A stretch of 52,366 bases of DNA from Bacillota bacterium (GTDB taxonomy: Bacteria; Bacillota; Sulfobacillia; JAJYWN01; JAJZPE01). The DNA is taken from positions 1 through 52,366 of the forward strand of contig DASXUT010000154.1 of NCBI GenBank assembly GCA_036504675.1, given 5' to 3'. Positions within the stretch are counted from its first letter, which is position 1; each line of letters starts with the position of its first letter. The position numbers were made by a program, and so were the translations under genes. Shown here in pieces: positions 5,528 to 35,042 of this stretch. The notes under the pieces were generated by a model. The model was not told where the DNA came from. It worked only from the letters and a program-made list of their open reading frames with translations, and did no database searches.

Positions 5528-6238
5528 CTACCCCGGCACCCCGGCCAGGATCCGGATGTCCTCCAGCCGGACCTGCAGCCCCGCCTCTTTCCGCAACATC
5601 ATGTTGACGAGCCCGGTGTGGTTCAGGTGCATCATGCAGAAGCCGGGCAGGAAGGTGTGCCGGACGCCGAACATGGGCGCCCGTCGCTGCCTTGTCGCCA
5701 TGCCGACGAAGCCCAGCATGTGGTAACCGCCGACATCCTTGACCGGGCGGCCGCGGGCGAAGGCCGGTCCGACGCACCAGGTCTCGAGGACGCCGGTGAC
5801 CGGGTCGGCCTCGATGACCTTAAGCACATGCTGGACGGGGCAACCGGCCCCGAAGGGCCGCCCAAGGACGATGTCGCCTCGGGTGATCCCCCACTTCTCG
5901 ACCAGGTCCCCGCGGAACGGCAGGACGACCTTCCGGGCCGACGGCTCCCCGGGCAGCGGTCCCAGGACAAAGTCCCAGGCGTTGCCGAGGACGTCGGTGG
6001 TGTCGGTGGCGCAGACGGTGGAGATGTCGGCCACGGGTGCCTGAGCCTCGTAGAAGGCGCAATCATCGACGGCCCGCTCGCCCGTGGCCAGCAGGCCGCG
6101 GAACTCCTCGCAGTTGCGGGCGCCGCAGAGGCCGCAGTCCTTTCCGGGCGGGGTCCAGTGGGCGTCGAGGGCGCGGTCCCTTTCGCGGACCCCGTCGCGA
6201 TCCTTTTGGTCCTTTTCGCGGCCCTTTTCGACTTCCAT
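5528..6238 (-). CDS. Uncharacterised 4Fe-4S cluster protein, partner of the upstream GTPase
   Basis: The 236-residue protein has a charged N-terminus (1-27) followed by a cluster-binding motif C35-x2-C38-G-x3-C43-x16-C60. This matches the Fe-S domain found in the corrinoid protein large subunit of the acetyl-CoA synthase system and in RnfB. The rest (about 75-236) is a conserved-looking domain with segments DLVEKWGITRGDIVLGRP, GAGCPVQHVLKV and FLPGFCMMHLNHTG, which I do not recognise as a named enzyme. The start is an ATG one base after the GTPase stop; a longer reading frame upstream overlaps the GTPase and has GTPase-shadow composition. With the GTPase and the ABC ATPase it forms a minus-strand trio. 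A role in metallocofactor assembly or in activating a metalloenzyme is inference from the motif set only. Confidence 0.8.
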   Translation of the reverse strand: MEVEKGREKDQKDRDGVRERDRALDAHWTPPGKDCGLCGARNCEEFRGLLATGERAVDDCAFYEAQAPVADISTVCATDTTDVLGNAWDFVLGPLPGEPSARKVVLPFRGDLVEKWGITRGDIVLGRPFGAGCPVQHVLKVIEADPVTGVLETWCVGPAFARGRPVKDVGGYHMLGFVGMATRQRRAPMFGVRHTFLPGFCMMHLNHTGLVNMMLRKEAGLQVRLEDIRILAGVPG

Positions 6239-6239
6239 C

Positions 6240-6950
6240 TCATTCGCCCCTGAAGAGGTACTCGGCGGCCGCGCCGTCGAGCCGGCGGACCACGCCGAAG
6301 TGGTGTTGCCAGCCGATCTCTTTCTTGCCGACGCAGAGGGTGCAGGTGCCGAGGGGCGGCACGCCTCGCAACAACAGGCCCTTGGGGTCAATGTCCGGCG
6401 ACTGGGCGATGAGATCGTAGAGCTTTTGGAGGGACGTGCCCTGGAGGGCGTTGGTCTCGAAGATGCGGATGCTCGGGTGAACCTCGCGGATCTTCTGCAG
6501 AAAGACTTCCCGCTCGGCTTGGCCGACGAGATCGATCTTGGTGACCACGGCGATGTCGGCCAGGCTGACCATGGACCCCATCTTCAGCGGGCTCTGGATG
6601 CCGGAGATGGCCGACAGGATGATGATTCCGAGCCCCTGGTTCAGGTATGGCGTGCAGCGTAGGCAGAGCCCCGCGCTCTCGACCATGAGCAGGTCGGCCT
6701 GATTCCTCTGGGCCCATTCGATCGCATCACCCAGGACCATCACCCCGGCGTGGTCTGGACAGAGGTCGCCGGAGTAGATCTTGGAGGTCAGGATGCCGAA
6801 CTCCGCCGCCAGCTCTTCATCTTCAAAGGCCTTGACCACGTCGATCTTGAGGAAAGCCAGGCGGCGCTGCTTGTGGAAGCGGGCGGTGACCTGCTTCAAG
6901 AGGGCCGTCTTGCCGGCCGACGGCGGCCCGGCGACGATCAGCAATTGCAC
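6240..6950 (-). CDS. HypB/CobW-like P-loop GTPase with Cys motifs
   Basis: This 236-residue protein has the P-loop GPPSAGKT (8-15), a TKID guanine-specificity motif (137-140), and several cysteines at positions expected for metal handling: GDLC (C64), ESAGLCLRC (C96, C99) and TCTLC (C203, C206). The family of SIMIBI GTPases (HypB, UreG, CobW) delivers nickel, cobalt or zinc to enzymes. The C-terminal CxxC with following GW and His pair is not typical of HypB. It starts at GTG with AAGGAAGGTG upstream. It follows an ABC ATPase gene after 115 bases that hold a strong hairpin, and it is coupled to the Fe-S protein gene (TGA, one base, ATG). Function is inferred, not established. Confidence 0.85.
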   Translation of the reverse strand: MQLLIVAGPPSAGKTALLKQVTARFHKQRRLAFLKIDVVKAFEDEELAAEFGILTSKIYSGDLCPDHAGVMVLGDAIEWAQRNQADLLMVESAGLCLRCTPYLNQGLGIIILSAISGIQSPLKMGSMVSLADIAVVTKIDLVGQAEREVFLQKIREVHPSIRIFETNALQGTSLQKLYDLIAQSPDIDPKGLLLRGVPPLGTCTLCVGKKEIGWQHHFGVVRRLDGAAAEYLFRGE

Positions 6951-6999
6951 GTCGACACCTTCCTTACTCGGGGATTGAGTTCAATCGGCCGGTGAGAAC

Positions 7000-7029
7000 G
7001 GTCGGACCCCGGGGGCCGGGGGTCCGACC
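7000..7029 (-). other. Strong hairpin between the ABC ATPase and GTPase genes
   Basis: GGTCGGACCCC (7000-7010) and GGGGTCCGACC (7019-7029) form a perfect 11-bp stem with a nine-base loop. No T tract follows on the minus strand (GTTCTCACC), so this is not a clear intrinsic terminator. It may be an RNA-processing or transcript-stability element that sets relative expression of the two genes. Confidence 0.55.
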
Positions 7030-7065
7030 TGGCTCGCACCGGACCGGCTGGGTCGCTATTCAGTT

Positions 7066-7830
7066 CTAGATGACCTCGTTGCAGAGCGATAGGCCGGCGC
7101 GCAGTTTCTCGCGGGCGGCAATCAGCCGCCGGTCCAAGGATATCAGCGTCTCGGCGGCCGGTCGCTCGGCGTCGTCACGTTCAAGGATCTTGACCACACC
7201 TCCGTTGGCGAAGACGATTCGCTTATGGGTCAGGATGGCGATGACCGGGTCGTGGGTGACGAAGACGATCATCTTGTTGGCCCGACGGACCGTGTCGACG
7301 ACCTCTTGCTTGAAGATCCCGGCGTTCTCGATCTCGTCGAGGAGGATGACCGGGGCCGCGCAGATGTGAAGGGCGTCGGCGATCATCAGGGACCGGGTCT
7401 GCCCGCCGGACAGGGTGGTGATCCGCATCATCGGCCCGATCTTCTCGCCGGTGAACTGGTTGGCCAGGTCGATCGTCTCATCGATGAGGCCATCCAATGG
7501 CAATCTGCGGGCCCGAGCGTGGGTCGCCAGGAAGTCCTTGACCGTGAGGTCGGTGAAGCACTTGGTGTTCTGGGTGATCATCGCCACGGGCTTGCGGGCC
7601 GGGTCCTGCCGCCAATCCTCGTCGGGGACCCCCCCGTCGATGAGGACCTGACGGCCGGTGGCCGTATCCTTCTGGGCCAGGAGCTCGATGTCGGTGATGA
7701 AGGCCGTCTTGCCGCTGCCGGTCGGCCCGACGATGGAGACGATCTCGCCAACTCGCAGGTCCAGACGCGAAAAATTTTCCCGGCGACCATCCTTGGTGGT
7801 CCCGGGAAGAATGCTGAGCTCCTGAAGCAT
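7066..7830 (-). CDS. ABC-type ATPase without a permease
   Basis: The 254-residue protein is an ABC ATPase: Walker A GPTGSGKT (35-42), signature LSGGQ (140-144), Walker B VILLDE (161-166), His switch VTHD (H193), and an N-terminal extension (1-30) unlike that of transporter subunits. No membrane protein gene is adjacent, so it may be a soluble ATPase that works with the downstream GTPase and Fe-S protein, rather than a transporter component. The start is the ATG with GGGAGTG about 6 bases upstream; a 12-codon upstream extension exists but lacks a site. It is divergent from the AsnB-CofE fusion gene across 294 bases. The precise role is unknown. Confidence 0.85.
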   Translation of the reverse strand: MLQELSILPGTTKDGRRENFSRLDLRVGEIVSIVGPTGSGKTAFITDIELLAQKDTATGRQVLIDGGVPDEDWRQDPARKPVAMITQNTKCFTDLTVKDFLATHARARRLPLDGLIDETIDLANQFTGEKIGPMMRITTLSGGQTRSLMIADALHICAAPVILLDEIENAGIFKQEVVDTVRRANKMIVFVTHDPVIAILTHKRIVFANGGVVKILERDDAERPAAETLISLDRRLIAAREKLRAGLSLCNEVI

Positions 7831-8124
7831 TGGAATCACTCCCGTTATGTCATTTTTTAGTTCCAACTTATGAAGCCTTAGTCCCGGGGGTGCGAAAAAC
7901 GGGACGGATGCCTAGGGATCGGGGCCCGCGGAACCTTCGAGTCGGCAGGGAACGTCGCCTCAACCTCGAACGTCAATATGACTGCAGATGCCTCGCCGGC
8001 CAAGGCGGTCGGAACGCGGCGGCAGCCTGGGTTAGTTCTGACGTTTGTTATGTAAAGGCCGATGTGATAAAGTAATTTGGTTGAGGCTCATCTTTTTCTT
8101 TGCATTGTTTCGGAGGTGTCAGCG

Positions 8125-10875
8125 ATGTGTGGAATCTACGGCTTTCTTGGTCAGCCAAATAGTGGCCTATTGAACCGAATGGGCAAGGTCCTCGTCCACC
8201 GCGGGCCGGACGACGTCGGTTCGCTCGAGCTGCCCTGGATCAGCCTGGGTCATCGCCGGCTGTCCATCATCGACCTGGCCACCGGCCATCAGCCGCTGGC
8301 CAACGAGGATGAGACGGTTTGGTTGGTCTATAACGGCGAGGTCTACAATTACCGCGAATTGCGGGCCGAGCTGGTCGAGCGTGGTCATGTCTTCAAGACC
8401 AACAGCGACAGCGAGGTCATCGTCCACGCCTATGAAGAATACGGCCCCGACTGCTTCAAGGGCTTCAACGGCATGTGGGCGGTGGTCCTGGCCGACCTCC
8501 GCCGGAACCGGCTGATCCTGGCCCGCGACCACTTCGGGATCAAACCCCTGTACTACACCATCGCCGGCGGCCGGCTCCTCTTCGCCTCGGAGATCAAGGC
8601 CCTTCTTCAGGATCCCTCGGCGCCATCCCGACCGAACGACCAGATGGTCTACGAGTACCTTGTCCACGGTCTCCACGACCACAAGCCAGAGACCTTCTTC
8701 GAGGGCATCTATCACCTGATGCCGGCGACCTACGCCGAGATCGACGGGGCGGCCATGGCCGCTCTGTCGGACGGAGAGGGCCTGGCTGCGCGGGCCGTCA
8801 CCTATTGGACGCCAGAGCTCAGCGAGGACGGCTCGGCCGACCCCGACGAGTTCCGCCGGCTCTTCGAGAAGACCGTGGAGCGCCGCTTGGTGGCCGAAGT
8901 GCCGGTCGGCTCGTGCCTGTCCGGCGGCCTCGACTCGACGTCCATCGTCAGCTTCATGAGCGGCCTTTTGAAGTCCCAGACGCCCGACGCGGCCTCGTTG
9001 CGCGGGCAGCTGAAGACGTTCTCCGCCGTCTTCGACAACGATCCCATTGATGAGCGGGACTACATCGCCGAAGCCGTCAAGGCCACCGGCGCCGACACCA
9101 CCTACATCCGTCCGACCTCGGAGGACTTCGTCGAGGAGCTCCGCGACTTCATCTGGCATCAGGAGGAGCCCCTCATCAGCACCGGGCCTTACGCCCAGTG
9201 GTGCGTCATGCGCGAGGCACGGAAGCAGGTCACCGTCCTCCTCGACGGGCAGGGCGGCGACGAACTGCTCGCCGGATACGTCCCCTATCAGTACGTCTAC
9301 CTGGCTCAGCTTTGGAAGGAAAGGAAGTACGGGAGATTCCTCCGCGAAGTCTGGGCGGCCAGGGATGTCCTCAAGCCGCTCCTCACCCGGCGGCTGCGCG
9401 ATCGCCGGAAGGGCTTCCCCCTGCGCAGCCTGCTGCGCAAGGAGTTCACCGACCGGGTCGTCGACCCGGGCTACACCCGCTCGCGGAACAACCTGAAGCT
9501 CCGTCTGCTCCAGGACCTGACCACCTACAGCCTGCCGTGCCTGCTGCGCTACGAGGACAAGAACTCGATGGCCCACTCGCTCGAGTCCCGCGTGCCTTAC
9601 CTGGACCAGGAACTCGTCGAGTGGATCCTCCGGCTGCCGTCCGACGTCATCATCCGCGACGGCTGGAGCCGCTGGATCCTGCGCACCGGGCTGAAGGGCG
9701 TGCTCCCCGAGAAGATCCGGCGACGCCGCTGGAAGGTCGGGTTCACGACCCCCGAGATCCGTTGGATCAAGGCCCGGCGGGCCGCCTTCACCAGCCTTCT
9801 TCGGTCGCCGTCCTTCGCCAACCGACCCTACTGGGACGGCGAAGCGGTGGCCCGCGCCTTCCTGGCCGCCAACCGGGGTAAGATCGACTTCTCCATGTTC
9901 TTCTGGCGGGTCATCAACGTCGAGTTGTGGCTGCGCGAATTTATCGACGCCCGGGCGGTCGACGAGCTCATCGCGGCCGAGCCTGGGGCCGGCGCCGCCC
10001 GGACCGCGCCCAATCAGGCCGCGCTCGATGAGGCCGCCGAAGCCGTGGCGGCGGTGGCGGCGACGGCCGAGACCAGCCCCACCCGGGGGCGCCTGGCCGA
10101 CCTCGGCGACCGGCTGGCCGTCAGGCTGACCGGCACCGGCGAGGCCGCCCGGCTGGCCGAGACCTATCGCCCCAACGCCGGCAAGCACCTCTTCGCCGCC
10201 GTCGGCGGACGGGTCTACGCCCGCCTGCCGGTCAAGACCGGCATCGTTAAGTCCGGCGACGACCTGGTCGCCTTCTTCAAGGAGTCCGTCGGCCGTCACG
10301 TGCAGCCGGGCGACATCGTCGTGATCGCCGAGAAGCCCGTGGCCATCAGCCAGGGCCGGTCCTTCCCGATCGAGGAGATCGAAGTGACCTGGCTGGCCAA
10401 GGCCCTCTCCAAGGCGGTCACCAAGACGCCGCACGGCATCGGCCTGGGCATCCCCCAGACCATGCAGTTGGCTTTGAACGAGGCCGGCGCGCCCAGGATC
10501 CTTCTGGCCACGGCGGTCTCCGCCGTCGCCAGGGTCTTCGGCCGCCGCGGGATCTTCTACAAGATCGCCGGTCCGACGGTCGAGGCCATCGACGGCCCGA
10601 CCCCCGGGACCCTGCCACCGTACAATCGCCAGGCCAAGCTCGGACCGAAGGACCCCATGGACGTCGCGGCGAAGCTGGCGGCGGCCATCGGCCCGCAGGT
10701 TGGGGTGGCCATCATCGACGCCAGCGACCTCACCGCCGACGTCCTCGGTCACGCGGCCGGGGTCGACCCGAGACTGGTCGAGACCTTGATGCGGGACAAC
10801 CCGCTCGGCCAGGGCCACCAACAGACGCCCATCGCCATCCTGCGCGAGGTGGGGCGCCTGGCGGCCGTGGCCTGA
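8125..10875 (+). CDS. asnB: Asparagine synthetase (glutamine-hydrolysing) fused to a CofE-like domain
   Basis: The 916-residue product begins MCGIYGF, giving the N-terminal nucleophile Cys of the class II glutaminase domain (about 1-200) after Met removal. This fixes the start at the ATG six bases after GGAGGTG. The synthetase domain follows with the pyrophosphatase loop SGGLDS (266-271), ending near 606. After an Ala-rich linker (about 612-675) comes a C-terminal domain of about 235 residues containing GDDLVAFF, QPGDIVVIAEKPVAISQGR and NPLGQGHQQTP. This matches the CofE-like family (F420-0:gamma-glutamyl ligase, PF01996) found as a separate protein in other Bacillota. Ordinary AsnB proteins stop at about 610-640 residues. 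The fusion joins two amide-forming activities; the joint substrate is unknown. A terminator follows at 10989. Confidence 0.9.
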   Translation: MCGIYGFLGQPNSGLLNRMGKVLVHRGPDDVGSLELPWISLGHRRLSIIDLATGHQPLANEDETVWLVYNGEVYNYRELRAELVERGHVFKTNSDSEVIVHAYEEYGPDCFKGFNGMWAVVLADLRRNRLILARDHFGIKPLYYTIAGGRLLFASEIKALLQDPSAPSRPNDQMVYEYLVHGLHDHKPETFFEGIYHLMPATYAEIDGAAMAALSDGEGLAARAVTYWTPELSEDGSADPDEFRRLFEKTVERRLVAEVPVGSCLSGGLDSTSIVSFMSGLLKSQTPDAASLRGQLKTFSAVFDNDPIDERDYIAEAVKATGADTTYIRPTSEDFVEELRDFIWHQEEPLISTGPYAQWCVMREARKQVTVLLDGQGGDELLAGYVPYQYVYLAQLWKERKYGRFLREVWAARDVLKPLLTRRLRDRRKGFPLRSLLRKEFTDRVVDPGYTRSRNNLKLRLLQDLTTYSLPCLLRYEDKNSMAHSLESRVPYLDQELVEWILRLPSDVIIRDGWSRWILRTGLKGVLPEKIRRRRWKVGFTTPEIRWIKARRAAFTSLLRSPSFANRPYWDGEAVARAFLAANRGKIDFSMFFWRVINVELWLREFIDARAVDELIAAEPGAGAARTAPNQAALDEAAEAVAAVAATAETSPTRGRLADLGDRLAVRLTGTGEAARLAETYRPNAGKHLFAAVGGRVYARLPVKTGIVKSGDDLVAFFKESVGRHVQPGDIVVIAEKPVAISQGRSFPIEEIEVTWLAKALSKAVTKTPHGIGLGIPQTMQLALNEAGAPRILLATAVSAVARVFGRRGIFYKIAGPTVEAIDGPTPGTLPPYNRQAKLGPKDPMDVAAKLAAAIGPQVGVAIIDASDLTADVLGHAAGVDPRLVETLMRDNPLGQGHQQTPIAILREVGRLAAVA

Positions 10876-10988
10876 ACTCGGGGCCAAGCCAAGTCTTGAG
10901 GTCAGGCGATGATGAGCGACCCGGTGATGCGGGCGGCGGGCTGCGGCGGCAAGTAGAAAGGCACGGATGACTCGACTGTCGAAGGATT

Positions 10989-11023: not shown

Positions 11024-11122
11024 TATTCGCTCATTCCCCGGGCCCTCGCTTTTCACCGCCCCGCGCCGTGACCTTTGGCGTCGTCCGTCGTCTTACTGTA
11101 TTGTCGAGGTGAACACAGCGCT

Positions 11123-11683
11123 GTGACTCAAATGACGCCCTCAACCAAGGAATCACGGTCACGAAAGGACCTTCCACGGGTTCGAGCGGTCTTCCAAGAC
11201 GCCTACCGCCAAGCCTGGCGGGAGCTGTACCGGTACGTCTATCGCCGGGTCCAGAACCGCGAGGAAGCCGAGGACATCACCCAGGAGGCCTATTCTCGGG
11301 CCTTCGCCCGGGGGACGGGCGAACCTCCCTCCCGCTGGTACCTTCAGACCGTCGCCCTCAACGTCATCCGAGACCGTTGGCGGAGGCGGAGAACCTGCGG
11401 CCAGGAGGTCCCTCTCGAACAAGTCTGGCTCGAACGATTGGGCGGCGCCGGCGGCGACGACCCCGAGGGGGCCGTGGAACGGGCCTGGATGGAGGGTCTC
11501 CTGAACCGGCTCCCCAAAGAGCAACAAACCGTCATCCGCCTGAGGATCGTCGAGGGCTATTCCCGCGTCGAGACGGCCGGGCGGCTGGGAATCAGTGAAG
11601 ACGCGGTCCGCGACCTGCAATACCGGGCCGTCCAGACCCTGCGGAGGCTCATCCGCGAACCCATCGAGGAGGAGACACGTTGA
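11123..11683 (+). CDS. ECF-type RNA polymerase sigma factor
   Basis: This 186-residue protein has sigma region 2 (RELYRYVYRRVQNREEAEDITQEAY is its core, with the DIT/QEA -10-recognition helix) at about 30-95 and region 4 (LNRLPKEQQTVIRLRIVEGY followed by a helix-turn-helix, SRVETAGRLGISEDAVRDL) at about 125-180. Regions 1 and 3 are absent, as in ECF sigma factors. The GTG at 11123 is 11 bases after GAGGTG; the ATG at 11132 is an alternative, and the first in-frame start at 11075 lacks a site. The stop overlaps the start of the next gene in TTGA, so the two proteins are translationally coupled, typical of a sigma factor with its regulator. Confidence 0.88.
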   Translation: MTQMTPSTKESRSRKDLPRVRAVFQDAYRQAWRELYRYVYRRVQNREEAEDITQEAYSRAFARGTGEPPSRWYLQTVALNVIRDRWRRRRTCGQEVPLEQVWLERLGGAGGDDPEGAVERAWMEGLLNRLPKEQQTVIRLRIVEGYSRVETAGRLGISEDAVRDLQYRAVQTLRRLIREPIEEETR

Positions 11684-13152
11684 AGGCTTCTGCCGAAGAA
11701 GAATTGGATCGCCTGATCGAGGCGATGAATGAAGAGAAATCCCCGCCACTCGGCGGCGACCCGGACCTGGCCGAAATGGCCGCCGTGGTCAGAGCGGTGC
11801 GGTCGCTGCGGCCCCAGGCCGAACCGCGCCACGTCCCCGGCCGGCCCGGCCTGCGCCGGTTCCTGACCCGCCTGGGCATCGGCCTTGCCGCCGCCTGCCT
11901 CGCCGCCGCCCTGATCGCCGTGCCCTGGCCCGGCTCCCCGCGGGCCGACGTCGTCCAGGCCATGGAACGGGTCGTCTCCAAGCTTACCAGCTACCATGGA
12001 GCGCTCGAGATGCGGACGACCAACGCCGGGGGCCAGACGGTCTTCACCCGTCGGGTCGAGCTCTGGTCGGACGGGAGAAAGCAGGCCTTCCGCCTCGACG
12101 ACGGGACCTTGACGGTCAATAACGGAGACGTGCATTGGCAGGCCCGCCCGGAGGATCGCCTAGTGGTCCTGCTGCCCCTGGTCGGCCCGGGCGCCGACGG
12201 CTCCTTCGATCTGAAGGACGAGGCCGGGCGGGCCCTGGAGTACCCGCACAAGTCGGTCGGGGTGGAGACGGTGGCCGGCCGCGAGGCTTCCCACATCGTC
12301 ATCGAGCCGCCGGGGGGCCAGGCTTACGACCTTTGGATCGATGTTCAGACCAAGCTCCCCCTGCGCCTGCGGACGGCGATGCAGAACGCCATTCAGACCA
12401 CCTACACCTTCGTCAGCTTCGAAACCGGTGAAATCGCCGATCCATCGGTCTTCGTGTACGACCGGACGGCCCTCGAGAAGCAAGGGTATCAGGTGGTGGA
12501 CGGCGACCCCGGCCGCGTGGTGGCCACGCCGAGAGAAGCCGCGGCCGTGGCCGGTTTCAACCCGCTGCTCCCGGCCGAGGGCCCGGAGCGGATTGTCGCC
12601 TTCAAGGATCGGATCGTCCTCGATTATGGCCAGACGACGATCACCGAAAGCAAGGCCGCCGGGGCCTTCGATCTCGTCGCCAACAGCGCCACCGGCAAGG
12701 CCGCGGGCGGGCCGCTCGAGGTGTGGTTCGACCGGTTGCGCTGGCGACAGGATGGTCTGGAGATCGCCGTCAAGGGCCCGCGCCGGGCTGAACTGGCCGC
12801 TCAGGTGACGGCCGACCTGGCCCTCCCCGACGTCGGCGCCGACCCGGCCGAGCAGGCCGAGGTCAAGGTGCCGGTCGACCTGATGATGGTTAAGGCGCAG
12901 CAGCAGCAGGTGGACGGCGGGCACAGCCCGTGGTGGCTCGACCCGATGCAGGTGGCCGCGGCCTTCGTGGACCAGACCGCGCCGGCGGGTTCCGGCGGGC
13001 CCGGGCCGCGGACCTTCCGAGTCAATTCGAACAACGGCCTCGTCGCCGTGGTCGAGGTGGGCGAGGGTTCCGTCGAGCGGGTCTACCTCAAGCGCCTGGT
13101 CCGCCAAGATGAGACCGGCATCTGGTCGGTGGTCGGCTACGACAAGCGGTAG
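11680..13152 (+). CDS. Membrane-anchored RseB/LolA-like protein, probable regulator of the upstream sigma factor
   Basis: The 490-residue protein starts at TTG, overlapping the sigma factor stop, with GAGGAG upstream. It has a cytoplasmic N-terminal helix-rich segment (1-60), one membrane span (about 65-84, rich in Ala/Leu) and a large extracytoplasmic region. That region begins ADVVQAMERVVSKLTSYHG and continues with beta-rich sequence (VELWSDGRKQAFRLDDGTLTV is part of it) in the style of RseB/LolA lipoprotein-carrier folds. Position, topology and coupling argue for an anti-sigma/sensor role; no ZAS zinc motif (HxxxCxxC) is visible in the N-terminus, so the mode of sigma binding is open. A hairpin terminator follows 7 bases after the stop. 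Confidence 0.7.
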   Translation: MKASAEEELDRLIEAMNEEKSPPLGGDPDLAEMAAVVRAVRSLRPQAEPRHVPGRPGLRRFLTRLGIGLAAACLAAALIAVPWPGSPRADVVQAMERVVSKLTSYHGALEMRTTNAGGQTVFTRRVELWSDGRKQAFRLDDGTLTVNNGDVHWQARPEDRLVVLLPLVGPGADGSFDLKDEAGRALEYPHKSVGVETVAGREASHIVIEPPGGQAYDLWIDVQTKLPLRLRTAMQNAIQTTYTFVSFETGEIADPSVFVYDRTALEKQGYQVVDGDPGRVVATPREAAAVAGFNPLLPAEGPERIVAFKDRIVLDYGQTTITESKAAGAFDLVANSATGKAAGGPLEVWFDRLRWRQDGLEIAVKGPRRAELAAQVTADLALPDVGADPAEQAEVKVPVDLMMVKAQQQQVDGGHSPWWLDPMQVAAAFVDQTAPAGSGGPGPRTFRVNSNNGLVAVVEVGEGSVERVYLKRLVRQDETGIWSVVGYDKR

Positions 13153-16979: not shown

Positions 16980-17717
16980 TTATGCCAGTCTACGTACATC
17001 AAACCTCAATTCCGGTATGTCTTCACGCGCAAGCCAGCTTAGTTGGGCGTAAGATCTCCTTAGGCCGGAGAAAGGCCCCCCAGTCTCAAAGACACCTTTG
17101 CTTGCCAGTGTTATCCCACCTACTTCGGTATCGAAACCAATGGCCGTGATCTCTGCCTTCAACAGAGCCAGATAGTCGCAACAATCGGTGGAAAATAAGC
17201 TGGGCGAAACCTTTACCTCCAGGAGAACGCCGCTCTTAGGGCCTTCTTTGATGCCGCCGACATCGATTGTCGACTTTCCCTTGTGCTTGACGGTCTTACC
17301 ATCAATCTTGACTAGAGGATTGTCCGCGAACTGGCAACCGTCGCCAGCAAACCTGCTGCTAAGCGGATCAATAACTAGTCTTTCTGCTAAGCGCCCTCTG
17401 AGCCTACCCAGGTAATCATCCTCAGATAAGTCGCGCTGCCCATGAGGAGAGTCATATAGCTGTTCAACTAGCCGAAGGAAATCTTGGAGATACTGCTTCT
17501 CGCTATTTGGCAGGACTGACCCGCGAAGCCTCTTCTTGTGTCCAGGCCATTCAGAGGCAAAATTGGCCATAGTCTTGATCTTGAAAACCACATCAAGCAA
17601 AGACTCCAGGAAATCTGGATGAATCTTTAGGAATGAGATTAACCTGGAAAGTGATGGCTGACTATCGACCTCCTGAACTGCCCTAAATTGTGCAACCAAC
17701 TGAACCCGACTAGTCAT
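16980..17717 (-). CDS. Probable PD-(D/E)XK-fold nuclease in the SecB-like cassette
   Basis: The 245-residue protein starts at ATG overlapping the SecB-like gene stop by 8 nt (ATGACTAG). The N-terminal half is helical. At 149-172 it contains STIDVGG followed 15 residues later by GVLLEVKVSP, that is D152 ... E168-x-K170, the spacing expected of a PD-(D/E)XK catalytic core, with E112 in AERLVID as a possible upstream acid. The segment CCDYLALLKAEITAIGFDTE then resembles the helix following the core. Restriction enzymes, Card1-like and many defence nucleases share this fold. The match is by motif only, and no target-recognition domain is evident. GC is much lower than in the neighbouring housekeeping genes. 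Confidence 0.55.
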   Translation of the reverse strand: MTSRVQLVAQFRAVQEVDSQPSLSRLISFLKIHPDFLESLLDVVFKIKTMANFASEWPGHKKRLRGSVLPNSEKQYLQDFLRLVEQLYDSPHGQRDLSEDDYLGRLRGRLAERLVIDPLSSRFAGDGCQFADNPLVKIDGKTVKHKGKSTIDVGGIKEGPKSGVLLEVKVSPSLFSTDCCDYLALLKAEITAIGFDTEVGGITLASKGVFETGGPFSGLRRSYAQLSWLAREDIPELRFDVRRLA

Positions 17718-18174
17718 CGCTCTTCCCCGTCGGATTTGATTCCCGCGAACGTTCAATGTTCTTAGAGGTCTGGAAAACATCGATGAGGGGTATTAGTAAC
17801 GGTGAAAGCCCCATCCTCATGGTGATATTGGCCACCAATTCTCGAGTGAACGGAAAAAGTAGCGCGAGAGCCTGGTTTGCCACAAATTCCCGGAATCCCT
17901 GGGCATCACTCCCGGGCTCGGTACTACAGTGTCCGGCAATCGTTAGTCTAAGACCAACGGCTTGCCGATCGCCTTGTTTAGCAGCTATATCTAATGTCAG
18001 GCTACAATGCCCCTCGGTGTCGGAAACAACCTTCCCGTCTGCCTCAGCCTTAATGGATACATCTAGGTGGTCCAATGCTTCATCTGAATAAAGCTTACAC
18101 TCTAGCTCTTTGAGCAACACCTTGGTGAGCTGAACCCGGTGAGGCACTATGTGTTGCTGTACCTCAGGCGACAT
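17710..18174 (-). CDS. SecB-like chaperone
   Basis: This 154-residue protein ends its core with ANQALALLFPFTRELVANIT (101-118), then MRMGLSPLLIPLIDVFQTSK. This closely matches the C-terminal SecB pattern LLFPFAREL...RGGFPPLLLPPVNF. The preceding part has the SecB-type strands LDVSIKAEAD, CSLTLDIAAK and VGLRLTIAG. SecB binds unfolded clients; outside Proteobacteria, SecB-like proteins usually occur in toxin-antitoxin-chaperone modules. The ATG at 18174 overlaps the upstream gene by 11 nt and has AAGGACG upstream. A C-terminal tail (138-154) is charged. No secA or secretion gene is adjacent, so a dedicated client within the cassette is the better guess. Confidence 0.75.
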   Translation of the reverse strand: MSPEVQQHIVPHRVQLTKVLLKELECKLYSDEALDHLDVSIKAEADGKVVSDTEGHCSLTLDIAAKQGDRQAVGLRLTIAGHCSTEPGSDAQGFREFVANQALALLFPFTRELVANITMRMGLSPLLIPLIDVFQTSKNIERSRESNPTGKSDD

Positions 18175-18748
18175 TAGCCCACGTCCTTGTTTCCATAGCG
18201 TCAGCAGCCCTGGTGGATGGGTGTCCACCGTAGAAACAAAATGTGGGTTGATGTAAGGCAGGTTTAAGGTCGAACGATATCGACACATTAACTGCGGCAA
18301 GGTTTTGGATATGCTCCAACACGAGGTACTTCGAACGGAGAAGTCCAGTTTTCTTCAGCCCGGAATGCAACTGCTCAAGCGCCTCTATGAGCCAAAACCA
18401 TCTATCATCAACGCTTGTTGCACCTTCCATCAAGTAACTCATATACTCAACCAGGCCAATGAGATCGACTAGCTCCTCCTCTCGGTCTACCACAATTTGA
18501 TCCGTGCATTCCTCGATTATCGAGGTGCCAGTCGAATTGTACCAACTGGCAAACTCGGGGTGGACTGCAATAACCTCTGCCACAAAACCCGCGTGCTTCT
18601 TTACAAAATCATCGAGGACTTGTCGCCCGACGTCTCTCAAAGAAGACTCCTGCCCTGGGCCAAACTTTGATGGGGTTATCCACTTGAAAAGCTCAGTCGC
18701 ATCCCCATACTGCTTAACCCAATTGATGAGAACTTTGGTAAAGGCCAT
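18164..18748 (-). CDS. Helical protein of unknown function, first gene of the SecB-like cassette
   Basis: The 194-residue product starts at ATG with GGAGGG eight bases upstream. It appears mainly helical, acidic in the middle (DREEELVDLIGLVEYMSYLM) and without membrane segments or obvious catalytic motif. Three Trp residues occur near the N-terminus and centre. I do not recognise the family. It overlaps the SecB-like gene by 11 nt, so both are translated from the same transcript. It could be a toxin, an antitoxin that is the chaperone client, or a structural partner. The last 40 residues lie just upstream of the SecB-like start and have a less regular composition, so a local frame error there cannot be excluded. 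Confidence 0.65.
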   Translation of the reverse strand: MAFTKVLINWVKQYGDATELFKWITPSKFGPGQESSLRDVGRQVLDDFVKKHAGFVAEVIAVHPEFASWYNSTGTSIIEECTDQIVVDREEELVDLIGLVEYMSYLMEGATSVDDRWFWLIEALEQLHSGLKKTGLLRSKYLVLEHIQNLAAVNVSISFDLKPALHQPTFCFYGGHPSTRAADAMETRTWANVA

Positions 18749-18904
18749 TAGCTCACCCTCCGTCCCAGAGTATTCCCGGGACTCACGCATATGACACTCC
18801 ATGGCCAGACACTGCTGCGCAAGATTAGGACAAGAGAAGACCGCCGGTCCTAGGAATCCTCTGATCTAACCGTTTGCCTCAAAAACCCCATACTCTATAT
18901 CGTT

Positions 18905-33477: not shown

Positions 33478-34902
33478 TCACGGAATCCAGTAGCTTGTCA
33501 GGCGGCCCATGGGCTGCAGCACCTTGCGGATCATCAGCATCCCGGTGTAGTTGCAGAGGGCGAAGACGAAGGCGCCCGGTGGGACGGCGGCCAGCCCCAG
33601 TTCGAGAGCCCGCCGGTAATCCGGCTCTCGCCGGATGCGATGGTCCTGGGCGGACGCGTATTTGAGCCTCAGGGCCAGGTCATCGGCCCAGGTACCGGAG
33701 ACCACGGTCCGCTCGAAGCCGGTCGGCCCCTCGAAGAGGTTCTCGAAGCCGACGTCCCAGATCCAGCCGACGTCGATGCCGCGGACGAGGGGGTCGTTCA
33801 TGGCCACGATGAGGGCCTTGGGTTGCGGGTGCATGACGATGGCCTTGATCATCTCATTGCAGCCGACGGGGTTCTTGACCATACCGATGAAGACCTTGCG
33901 GCCGCGGACCTTGACCACCTCGCCCCGGCCAAAGGCCGGCCGGCAACGCTCCAACCCCAAGCGGGCGACGTTTTCGTCGATGCCGAGGCAGGTCGCCGCG
34001 GTCAGGGCGGCCAGGGCGTTGTAGGCGTTGAACAGCCCGGGGAAGGCCAGGGAGACCTCGAGTGGGCCGGCGCCGTGCTCCACGGTGAGCAGCGACCCCT
34101 CAGCCCCGCGGGGCTTGATCTTCCGCAGGATGACCGAGGCCGTGGGCCGCCCGTAGCCGCAGCCGGGGCACTGGTAGATGCCGGCATGGGCGAAGTACTC
34201 GACCTTGTAGGTCAGGAGGGCACCGCAACGCGGGCAATGCCGGCCCTCAATCAGGTGGCCCTCGGTGTGCCTGTCGCCGAAGCCGTTCTCGGCCCCGAAG
34301 AAGCGGACGATCCGGCCCGATTGCGAATCGAGACTGGCCACCAGGGGGTCGTCGGCGTTGAGGACGCAGAAGCCGCCCGGGATCGAGGCCAGCCCGCGCC
34401 CGACCTTGGTGACGACGTTCTCGATCTGCCCGTAGCGGTCGACCTGGTCGCGGGAGAAGTTGGTGACCACCAGACCGACGCACTTGAGGTCGTTGGCCAC
34501 CAGGGGCAGCCATCCCTCATCGACTTCGAAGACGGCGTAGTCGGCCTCGATCCGGCCCAGGCAGTCGGCGGCGTTGACGAAGGCGGCGGCCACGCCATAC
34601 CGGAGGTTAGCCCCGGACGGGTTGTGGATCACCCGGTAGCCCGCCGTCCTCATGATCGAAGTCAGCATCCTGGCGGTCGTCGTCTTGCCGTTGGTCCCGG
34701 TGACCAGGATGCTGCCGCGCTTGACCCTGGCACCGAGGGTCCTCAGGATGGCCGGGTCGATGGTCAGGGCGACCTTCCCGGGCAGGTTGGAACCGCCGCG
34801 ACCGGCCGCCCGACTCGCGTAGAACGACAGCTTAGCGGAAGCCAAGGCTATCCGCCCGCGGAGACCATAGTGGCTCAAACGGCCGTCTCCCTCCCCAGAC
34901 AT
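33478..34902 (-). CDS. murT: MurT-like lipid II isoglutaminyl synthase subunit
   Basis: The 474-residue Mur-ligase-related protein has the P-loop GTNGKTTT (69-76), a central ATPase domain, a four-Cys zinc ribbon (C223, C226 in CPRCG; C245, C248 in CPGCG) that is specific to MurT, and a C-terminal DUF1727 domain (from about 345). MurT amidates the D-Glu of lipid II using ammonia from the glutaminase GatD. gatD normally lies directly beside murT, but here the neighbours are glyQ and recO, so the partner must be elsewhere or absent. The ATG at 34902 has a weak GAGGCG site; an upstream frame to 35019 crosses the promoter at 34941-34970. Confidence 0.88.
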   Translation of the reverse strand: MSGEGDGRLSHYGLRGRIALASAKLSFYASRAAGRGGSNLPGKVALTIDPAILRTLGARVKRGSILVTGTNGKTTTARMLTSIMRTAGYRVIHNPSGANLRYGVAAAFVNAADCLGRIEADYAVFEVDEGWLPLVANDLKCVGLVVTNFSRDQVDRYGQIENVVTKVGRGLASIPGGFCVLNADDPLVASLDSQSGRIVRFFGAENGFGDRHTEGHLIEGRHCPRCGALLTYKVEYFAHAGIYQCPGCGYGRPTASVILRKIKPRGAEGSLLTVEHGAGPLEVSLAFPGLFNAYNALAALTAATCLGIDENVARLGLERCRPAFGRGEVVKVRGRKVFIGMVKNPVGCNEMIKAIVMHPQPKALIVAMNDPLVRGIDVGWIWDVGFENLFEGPTGFERTVVSGTWADDLALRLKYASAQDHRIRREPDYRRALELGLAAVPPGAFVFALCNYTGMLMIRKVLQPMGRLTSYWIP

Positions 34903-34940
34903 GATCGCCTCGGCCGAAGGGCTAGGGCAAAGGCCGCTAT

Positions 34941-34970
34941 AGTCTATGGGAGGGGCCTGGCAGATGCCAA
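34941..34970 (-). promoter_or_regulatory. Probable promoter of murT
   Basis: TTGGCA (plus-strand 34965-34970) and TAGACT (34941-34946) are 18 bases apart. The expected start near 34934 gives a leader of about 30 bases before the murT ATG. It lies after the hairpin that closes the recO unit. Confidence 0.55.
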
Positions 34971-35016
34971 TAGTTGACAGAAGCATGGGACATAAGGGAG
35001 TCCGAAGAGGCAGATA

Positions 35017-35042
35017 CACCCCGGGAGTGATTCCCCGGGGTG
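35017..35042 (-). terminator. Hairpin terminator after recO
   Basis: CACCCCGGG (35017-35025) and CCCGGGGTG (35034-35042) form a 9-bp stem with an eight-base loop. It lies 56 bases after the recO stop. The following TGTATC is a poor T tract. Confidence 0.55.

Follow-up and report, generated by a model that had tools for sequence, protein, structure and literature searches.

The window, the whole 52,366-nucleotide stretch analysed here (contig DASXUT010000154.1 of a Bacillota bacterium), contains a gene in which a complete class II AsnB (residues 1-606 of the protein) is continued in the same frame by a domain of the CofE fold. We are highly confident that this fusion represents a genuine and conserved enzyme pair operating outside F420 metabolism. 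Both the fused architecture and the operonic pair of separate genes to which it is related are apparently undescribed, while being built from known kinds of enzyme; no prior description of the architecture was found in the open-licence PMC literature.

Architecture, authenticity and spread of the fused gene

The reading frame runs uninterrupted on the forward strand from 8125 to 10872 (916 codons; 8125-10875 with the stop codon included), and its codon-position GC remains coding-like throughout the linker and the junction (Table 1). A long antisense ORF at 8167-10887 is the usual shadow of such a high-GC gene. Three Pfam families match above their cut-offs: GATase_7 at residues 43-162 (163 bits), Asn_synthase at residues 242-604 (258.6 bits) and F420_ligase, PF01996, at residues 703-866 (50.6 bits against a cut-off of 25). 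The linker is variable in the homologues, in which it spans 36-80 amino acids with a recurrent GD...A element, and it is partly disordered in the structure model. The model of the full-length protein (pTM 0.86), in which the low-confidence stretch of the linker is confined to residues 619-651, suggests a defined packing of the AsnB and CofE-like halves against each other.

Table 1. Coordinates of the fused gene and of its parts in the window
Feature	Position	Strand	Basis
Shine-Dalgarno GGAGG, 8 nt 5' of the ATG	8112..8116	+	Read directly from the sequence
Fused AsnB-CofE-like gene, 916 aa plus stop	8125..10875	+	ORF, full-length homologues
Class II glutaminase domain, residues 2-162	8128..8610	+	Pfam GATase_7, conservation
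AsnB synthetase domain, residues 242-604	8848..9936	+	Pfam Asn_synthase, conservation; PP-loop SGGLDS 266-271, DGQGGDE 374-380
Linker, residues 607-680	9943..10164	+	Homologue alignment, structure model
CofE-fold amide ligase-like domain, residues 681-916 (236 residues)	10165..10872	+	PF01996, AlphaFold, conservation

The proposal of an earlier note, that AsnB and a CofE-family domain are naturally fused in this gene, was borne out by the single frame, by the intact catalytic motifs of both parts and by the recurrence of the same architecture in independent assemblies. The fusion is genuine and not an accident of assembly, since independently assembled genomes encode the same architecture with full-length identities of 53-78%; a frameshift or misassembly at the junction is ruled out by this recurrence in many assemblies, as well as by the agreement of the trees of both halves. 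A search of 154 genomes of the window's class, using the AsnB half as the query (E <= 1e-100), retrieved 22 orthologues in 20 genomes, and this survey, of the kind suggested by the earlier note, found the CofE-like domain attached in every orthologue (22/22). All of them lie in open frames of 873-996 codons that include this domain, 20 of the 22 having been read directly. The CofE-like family itself was found in 123 of the 154 genomes. Within a phylum sample of 398 genomes, the window's genome was the sole match at E <= 1e-130. Actinomycetota constitute a second pocket, with fused homologues in Thermoleophilia (61-69% identity) and three more fused proteins from the Actinomycetota phylum sample; all of the close Actinomycetota homologues that were checked are fused likewise. 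In one further locus (L060), AsnB is cut by the contig end, and the genome (G156) has the CofE-like part on another contig. A tblastn search of plasmids matched the AsnB half alone, at less than 60% identity, and no plasmid record covered 80% of the query.

The two halves and the F420 question

To judge from its motifs, the AsnB half is fully equipped to hydrolyse glutamine, transfer the ammonia and carry out an ATP-dependent amidation. Cys2, which becomes the catalytic Cys1 once the initial methionine is removed, is invariant in all paired or fused homologues (35/35), together with Arg45, Asn70-Gly71-Glu72 and Asp95, and the SGGxDS motif at residues 266-271 is likewise invariant in these homologues except at position 269 (x). 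The Pfam domains and these conserved motifs confirm the earlier description of residues 1-606 as a complete class II AsnB with Cys1 and SGGLDS. Both Pfam domains, the catalytic motifs and the TIGR01536 (asparagine synthase) score of 445.7 bits against a cut-off of 267.1 place the half in the class II asparagine-synthetase superfamily. It falls short of PRK09431, the equivalog of Escherichia coli AsnB (264.6 bits against 499), and matches TIGR03104, the amidotransferase of N-acetylglutaminylglutamine amide (NAGGN) synthesis, only partially (296 bits against 570). The genome, which the earlier note proposed to check for a separate canonical asnB, carries a second, separate AsnB-type gene (G000:C17), which is 31% identical.

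The kinship of the C-terminal half with CofE became apparent through profile and fold searches, a single-sequence search for solved relatives having yielded only sub-threshold CofE matches (E of 0.16-0.18). A Foldseek search of the PDB with the AlphaFold model of this half (pLDDT 88) returned CofE structures as the sole matches (2PHN, E of 3.6e-9, TM ~0.6, 17-18% identity), which, together with the PF01996 match, places it in the CofE superfamily (PF01996/COG1478 fold). The CofE equivalogs are far from being reached, with 19.7 against 180.65 bits for TIGR01916 and 21.3 against 274 bits for NF009809. On these profile and fold comparisons, the half belongs to the superfamily as a divergent member and is not CofE itself; the earlier assignment to CofE therefore holds for the family and the fold and fails for the enzyme.

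Asp823, Asp865, Asp868 and the N892-P893-x-G895...P902 signature are common to all 58 family members compared (58/58), as would be expected of an active site; in the protein itself, the C-terminal motif reads D-N-P-L-G-Q-G (891-897), followed by T-P (901-902). In the profile alignment, the invariant Asp865 falls on the aspartate of the CofE D150-T-N motif, an aspartate that binds metal in CofE. The D150-T-N motif and the residue after it are aligned with D-x-[NS]-D, so that the adjacent G153-R-C155 loop of CofE is lost, with the invariant Asp868 in place of Gly153. In CofE, residues 153-155 contact F420 (PMC10861534). The CofE-like half resembles CofE and the N-terminal domain of FbiB in its fold, its Pfam family and the aspartate of D150-x-N, but differs from them in its low sequence identity, in the absence of the F420-binding loop and in possessing an N-P-x-G...T-P motif of its own.

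No gene but the fusion matches PF01996 in the genome to which the window belongs (3.28 Mb, 96% complete), and neither CofD (best 28.5 against 257 bits) nor CofH (best 54.3 against 374 bits) was found there above cut-off. A role in F420 biosynthesis is rejected on account of the CofE equivalog scores, the loss of the F420-contacting loop and the lack of CofD and CofH above cut-off. On the same three grounds, the idea that the two halves modify a cofactor in turn is not supported, and the neighbourhood of the unfused pairs described below points to the cell wall or division instead.

Unfused pairs, shared ancestry and gene neighbourhoods

In seven Thermoleophilia genomes (L112-L117 and L119), AsnB and the CofE-like protein have a gene each; the two genes are neighbours on the same strand, and their order is that of the fusion. 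The unfused AsnB orthologues are approximately 47-53% identical to the fused AsnB and end where the fusion junction lies; the stop and start codons of the two genes overlap in L112-L115 and L117, and the genes abut in L116. In L119, where the gene finder had called the wrong strand, tblastn located CofE-like coding directly 3' of AsnB (53% identity over 227 amino acids). The notion of two enzymes acting together is thus supported by halves that exist elsewhere as abutting or overlapping genes. Around AsnB paralogues of 29-38% identity, both those at other loci of Thermoleophilia and the second AsnB of the window's genome, the stretches read contained no CofE-like neighbour.

In maximum-likelihood trees obtained by quick searches, with SH-aLRT as the only support measure, the fused and paired sequences form a single clade (support of 100 for AsnB and 90 for CofE), in which all fused proteins together have the unfused pairs as their sister group (99 and 88, respectively); the CofE tree has several moderately supported branches, as well as four long branches outside this clade. 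Pairwise distances of the AsnB half and of the CofE-like half are correlated (r=0.87). Since one clade is recovered in both trees and the unfused pairs are sister to the fused proteins, the data fit a single fusion, after which both halves were inherited together and also passed between Bacillota and Actinomycetota by transfer.

The surroundings of the unfused pairs are a division and cell-wall cluster. In L116, which extends over 17 kb, the pair is preceded by genes for FtsA, FtsZ, a PgeF/YfiH-type Cu-oxidase_4 protein, a YggS-type protein (Ala_racemase_N), SepF, a ProC-type reductase and YggT, and is followed 3' by those for DivIVA, a YggU-type DUF167 protein, a DksA-type zinc-finger protein, LspA and a pseudouridine synthase (rluD), as named from Pfam. 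In six of the seven unfused loci, the pair is flanked by yggT and divIVA, and the neighbours in L113, L114, L115, L117 and L119 are homologous to those of L116 as far as each stretch extends; the short stretch of L112 displays the divIVA and yggU side alone. This evidence stems from one lineage of seven related metagenome-assembled genomes, the six unfused AsnB proteins compared being 78-94% identical to one another, and the location in the cluster may in part be inherited synteny.

Relatives of the CofE-like half point in the same direction. In the window's class, the family occurs at the C-terminus of an N-acetylmuramoyl-L-alanine amidase (Amidase_3; 8110-9756 in L051, G029) and next to Amidase_3 genes in L050 and L054. 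It also forms the C-terminal domain of a TPR-repeat protein (1390-2811 in L055, G008), and FbiB is a fusion that includes CofE itself (PMC8498797). The statement that the family normally exists alone was therefore incomplete: lone copies do occur, some adjoining T2SSF, ArsA or glutamate dehydrogenase-like genes, but so do these fusions. Tandem CofE-like genes are found in L145 (G085), with three matches within 2.4 kb.

No neighbours shared by all lineages were found for the fused genes, which lie outside the division cluster in the loci examined and adjoin, variously, an amino-acid permease (in one family), ABC transporters or an ECF sigma factor. In the window, an ECF sigma factor and a MucB/RseB-like protein follow directly downstream (11075-13152, +) and have homologues beside the fusion of G001. 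On the other strand upstream (5528-7866) are a HypB/CobW-like GTPase (6240-6950), an overlapping FeS-domain ORF (5528-6391) and an ABC ATPase (7066-7866). Three further ORFs on the reverse strand at 16980-18802, beside rpoD and dnaG, have a third-position GC of ~0.52, much below that of their surroundings, and are possibly foreign DNA or non-coding calls.

Proposed function and alternative readings

We tentatively favour, at a probability slightly short of even, a bifunctional enzyme, amidotransferase and amino-acid ligase in one, whose substrate would belong to the cell envelope and would probably be a peptidoglycan precursor. An envelope substrate is proposed because the unfused pairs lie in the division and cell-wall cluster and because CofE-like relatives are fused or adjacent to amidases; a ligase is proposed because CofE uses GTP to activate a carboxylate, which it then couples to an amine (PMC10861534, PMC8498797). 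By analogy, the CofE-like half would most likely activate an acceptor carboxylate with a nucleoside triphosphate and metal, and would couple it to an amino acid through the amino group of the latter. The AsnB half would hydrolyse glutamine, pass the ammonia to its ATP-pyrophosphatase site and amidate a carboxylate of the same substrate, either the newly added one or a neighbouring one. The substrate would probably be a cytoplasmic cell-envelope precursor and most plausibly the peptidoglycan stem peptide, at the α-carboxyl of D-Glu or the ε-carboxyl of diaminopimelate. A catalytic role of the CofE-like half, the sequence of the two reactions, the identity of the added amino acid and the choice of peptidoglycan as substrate are all inferred, and the CofE-like family could instead be inactive or regulatory.

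The closest parallel to this proposal is found in Lactococcus, where a single peptidoglycan precursor is modified first by an amino-acid ligase and then by an amidotransferase of the AsnB type: AslA ligates D-Asp and AsnH amidates it (PMC4155827). AslA is, however, an ATP-grasp enzyme that adds D-Asp to the lysine of the stem peptide, in contrast to the CofE fold of the half described here and its fused or adjacent position. The AsnB/LtsA proteins of Bacillus, Listeria and Corynebacterium, which amidate mDAP and have a characteristic extra loop, likewise combine a class II glutaminase with an AsnB synthetase and modify a cell-wall precursor, but the description consulted (PMC8554201) names neither a CofE-like domain nor a CofE-like partner. 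About half of the genomes with the fusion also have MurT (f1, f2, f18 and f48), which is not among the matches listed for f38 and f39, nor for G082 and G083 of f42; this mixed co-occurrence provides no clean anti-correlation that would support replacement of MurT/GatD by the fusion, and it does not identify the carboxylate that is modified. The window itself encodes a MurT-like Mur ligase (33478-35019, -; Mur_ligase_M and MurT_C) between glyQS and recO, with GatD absent among its immediate neighbours; this is a second MurT copy in the genome, and G001 and G002 likewise carry it on the contig that holds the fusion.

Alternatively, the two halves could build an amidated peptide-like small molecule, such as an osmolyte, part of a siderophore or the tail of a cofactor other than F420. 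Many such pathways use AsnB-type enzymes. In NAGGN synthesis, a dipeptide ligase is paired with an AsnB-type amidotransferase, much as in the fusion, and the partial TIGR03104 match recalls this system. The fused genes, moreover, have no cell-wall neighbours and adjoin transporters in some genomes. The score nevertheless lies below the TIGR03104 cut-off, the NAGGN ligase belongs to a different family from the CofE-like half, no conserved biosynthetic neighbours were seen, and the division cluster and the amidase-linked relatives speak for the envelope; a natural-product role is accordingly unlikely, while retaining an appreciable share of the probability. Improbable, on the other hand, is an ordinary asparagine synthetase with a regulatory or scaffolding C-terminal domain: the TIGR01536 score is well above its cut-off, but this model is broad, PRK09431 is not reached, the genome has its second AsnB-type gene and the CofE-like half retains the invariant acidic residues and N-P-x-G...P in all 58 sequences, as would befit an active site.

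The remaining readings give the CofE-like half an established CofE-superfamily activity. A COG1478 member (FolC2) replaces FolC in chlamydiae and complements an E. coli folC mutant (PMC1971073), and is thus a precedent for recruitment of the superfamily to a substrate other than F420. That the half is a folate poly-γ-glutamate ligase carried on an AsnB is nonetheless very improbable: relatives score at noise level for TIGR04132 (18.8-20.8 bits against 350), and the fixed AsnB partner would be left unexplained. Chlamydial FolC2 itself clusters with folate genes, and the description consulted names no AsnB partner for it. A true CofE acting on F420-0 has a negligible probability, the PF01996 match and the fold being outweighed by the equivalog scores, the lost loop and the lack of CofD and CofH above cut-off.

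Under the favoured envelope reading, Thermoleophilia and a class of Bacillota may possess a new precursor-tailoring system, a possibility to which we assign appreciably less than an even chance. In it, a ligase of the CofE fold would attach an amino acid to one of the carboxylates of the peptidoglycan stem, and its AsnB partner, fused or encoded alongside, would amidate the product. If true, this would add to MurT/GatD and AsnB/LtsA another enzymatic way of modifying the stem peptide; it would also be a first cell-wall role for the CofE fold and a hitherto unknown modification of peptidoglycan in Thermoleophilia and Bacillota that have been little studied. The analysis ties an orphan branch of the CofE superfamily to an AsnB partner that is fixed and, by way of the unfused pairs, to a division and cell-wall cluster; a family labelled F420 ligase in Pfam thereby gains a proposed function that can be tested.
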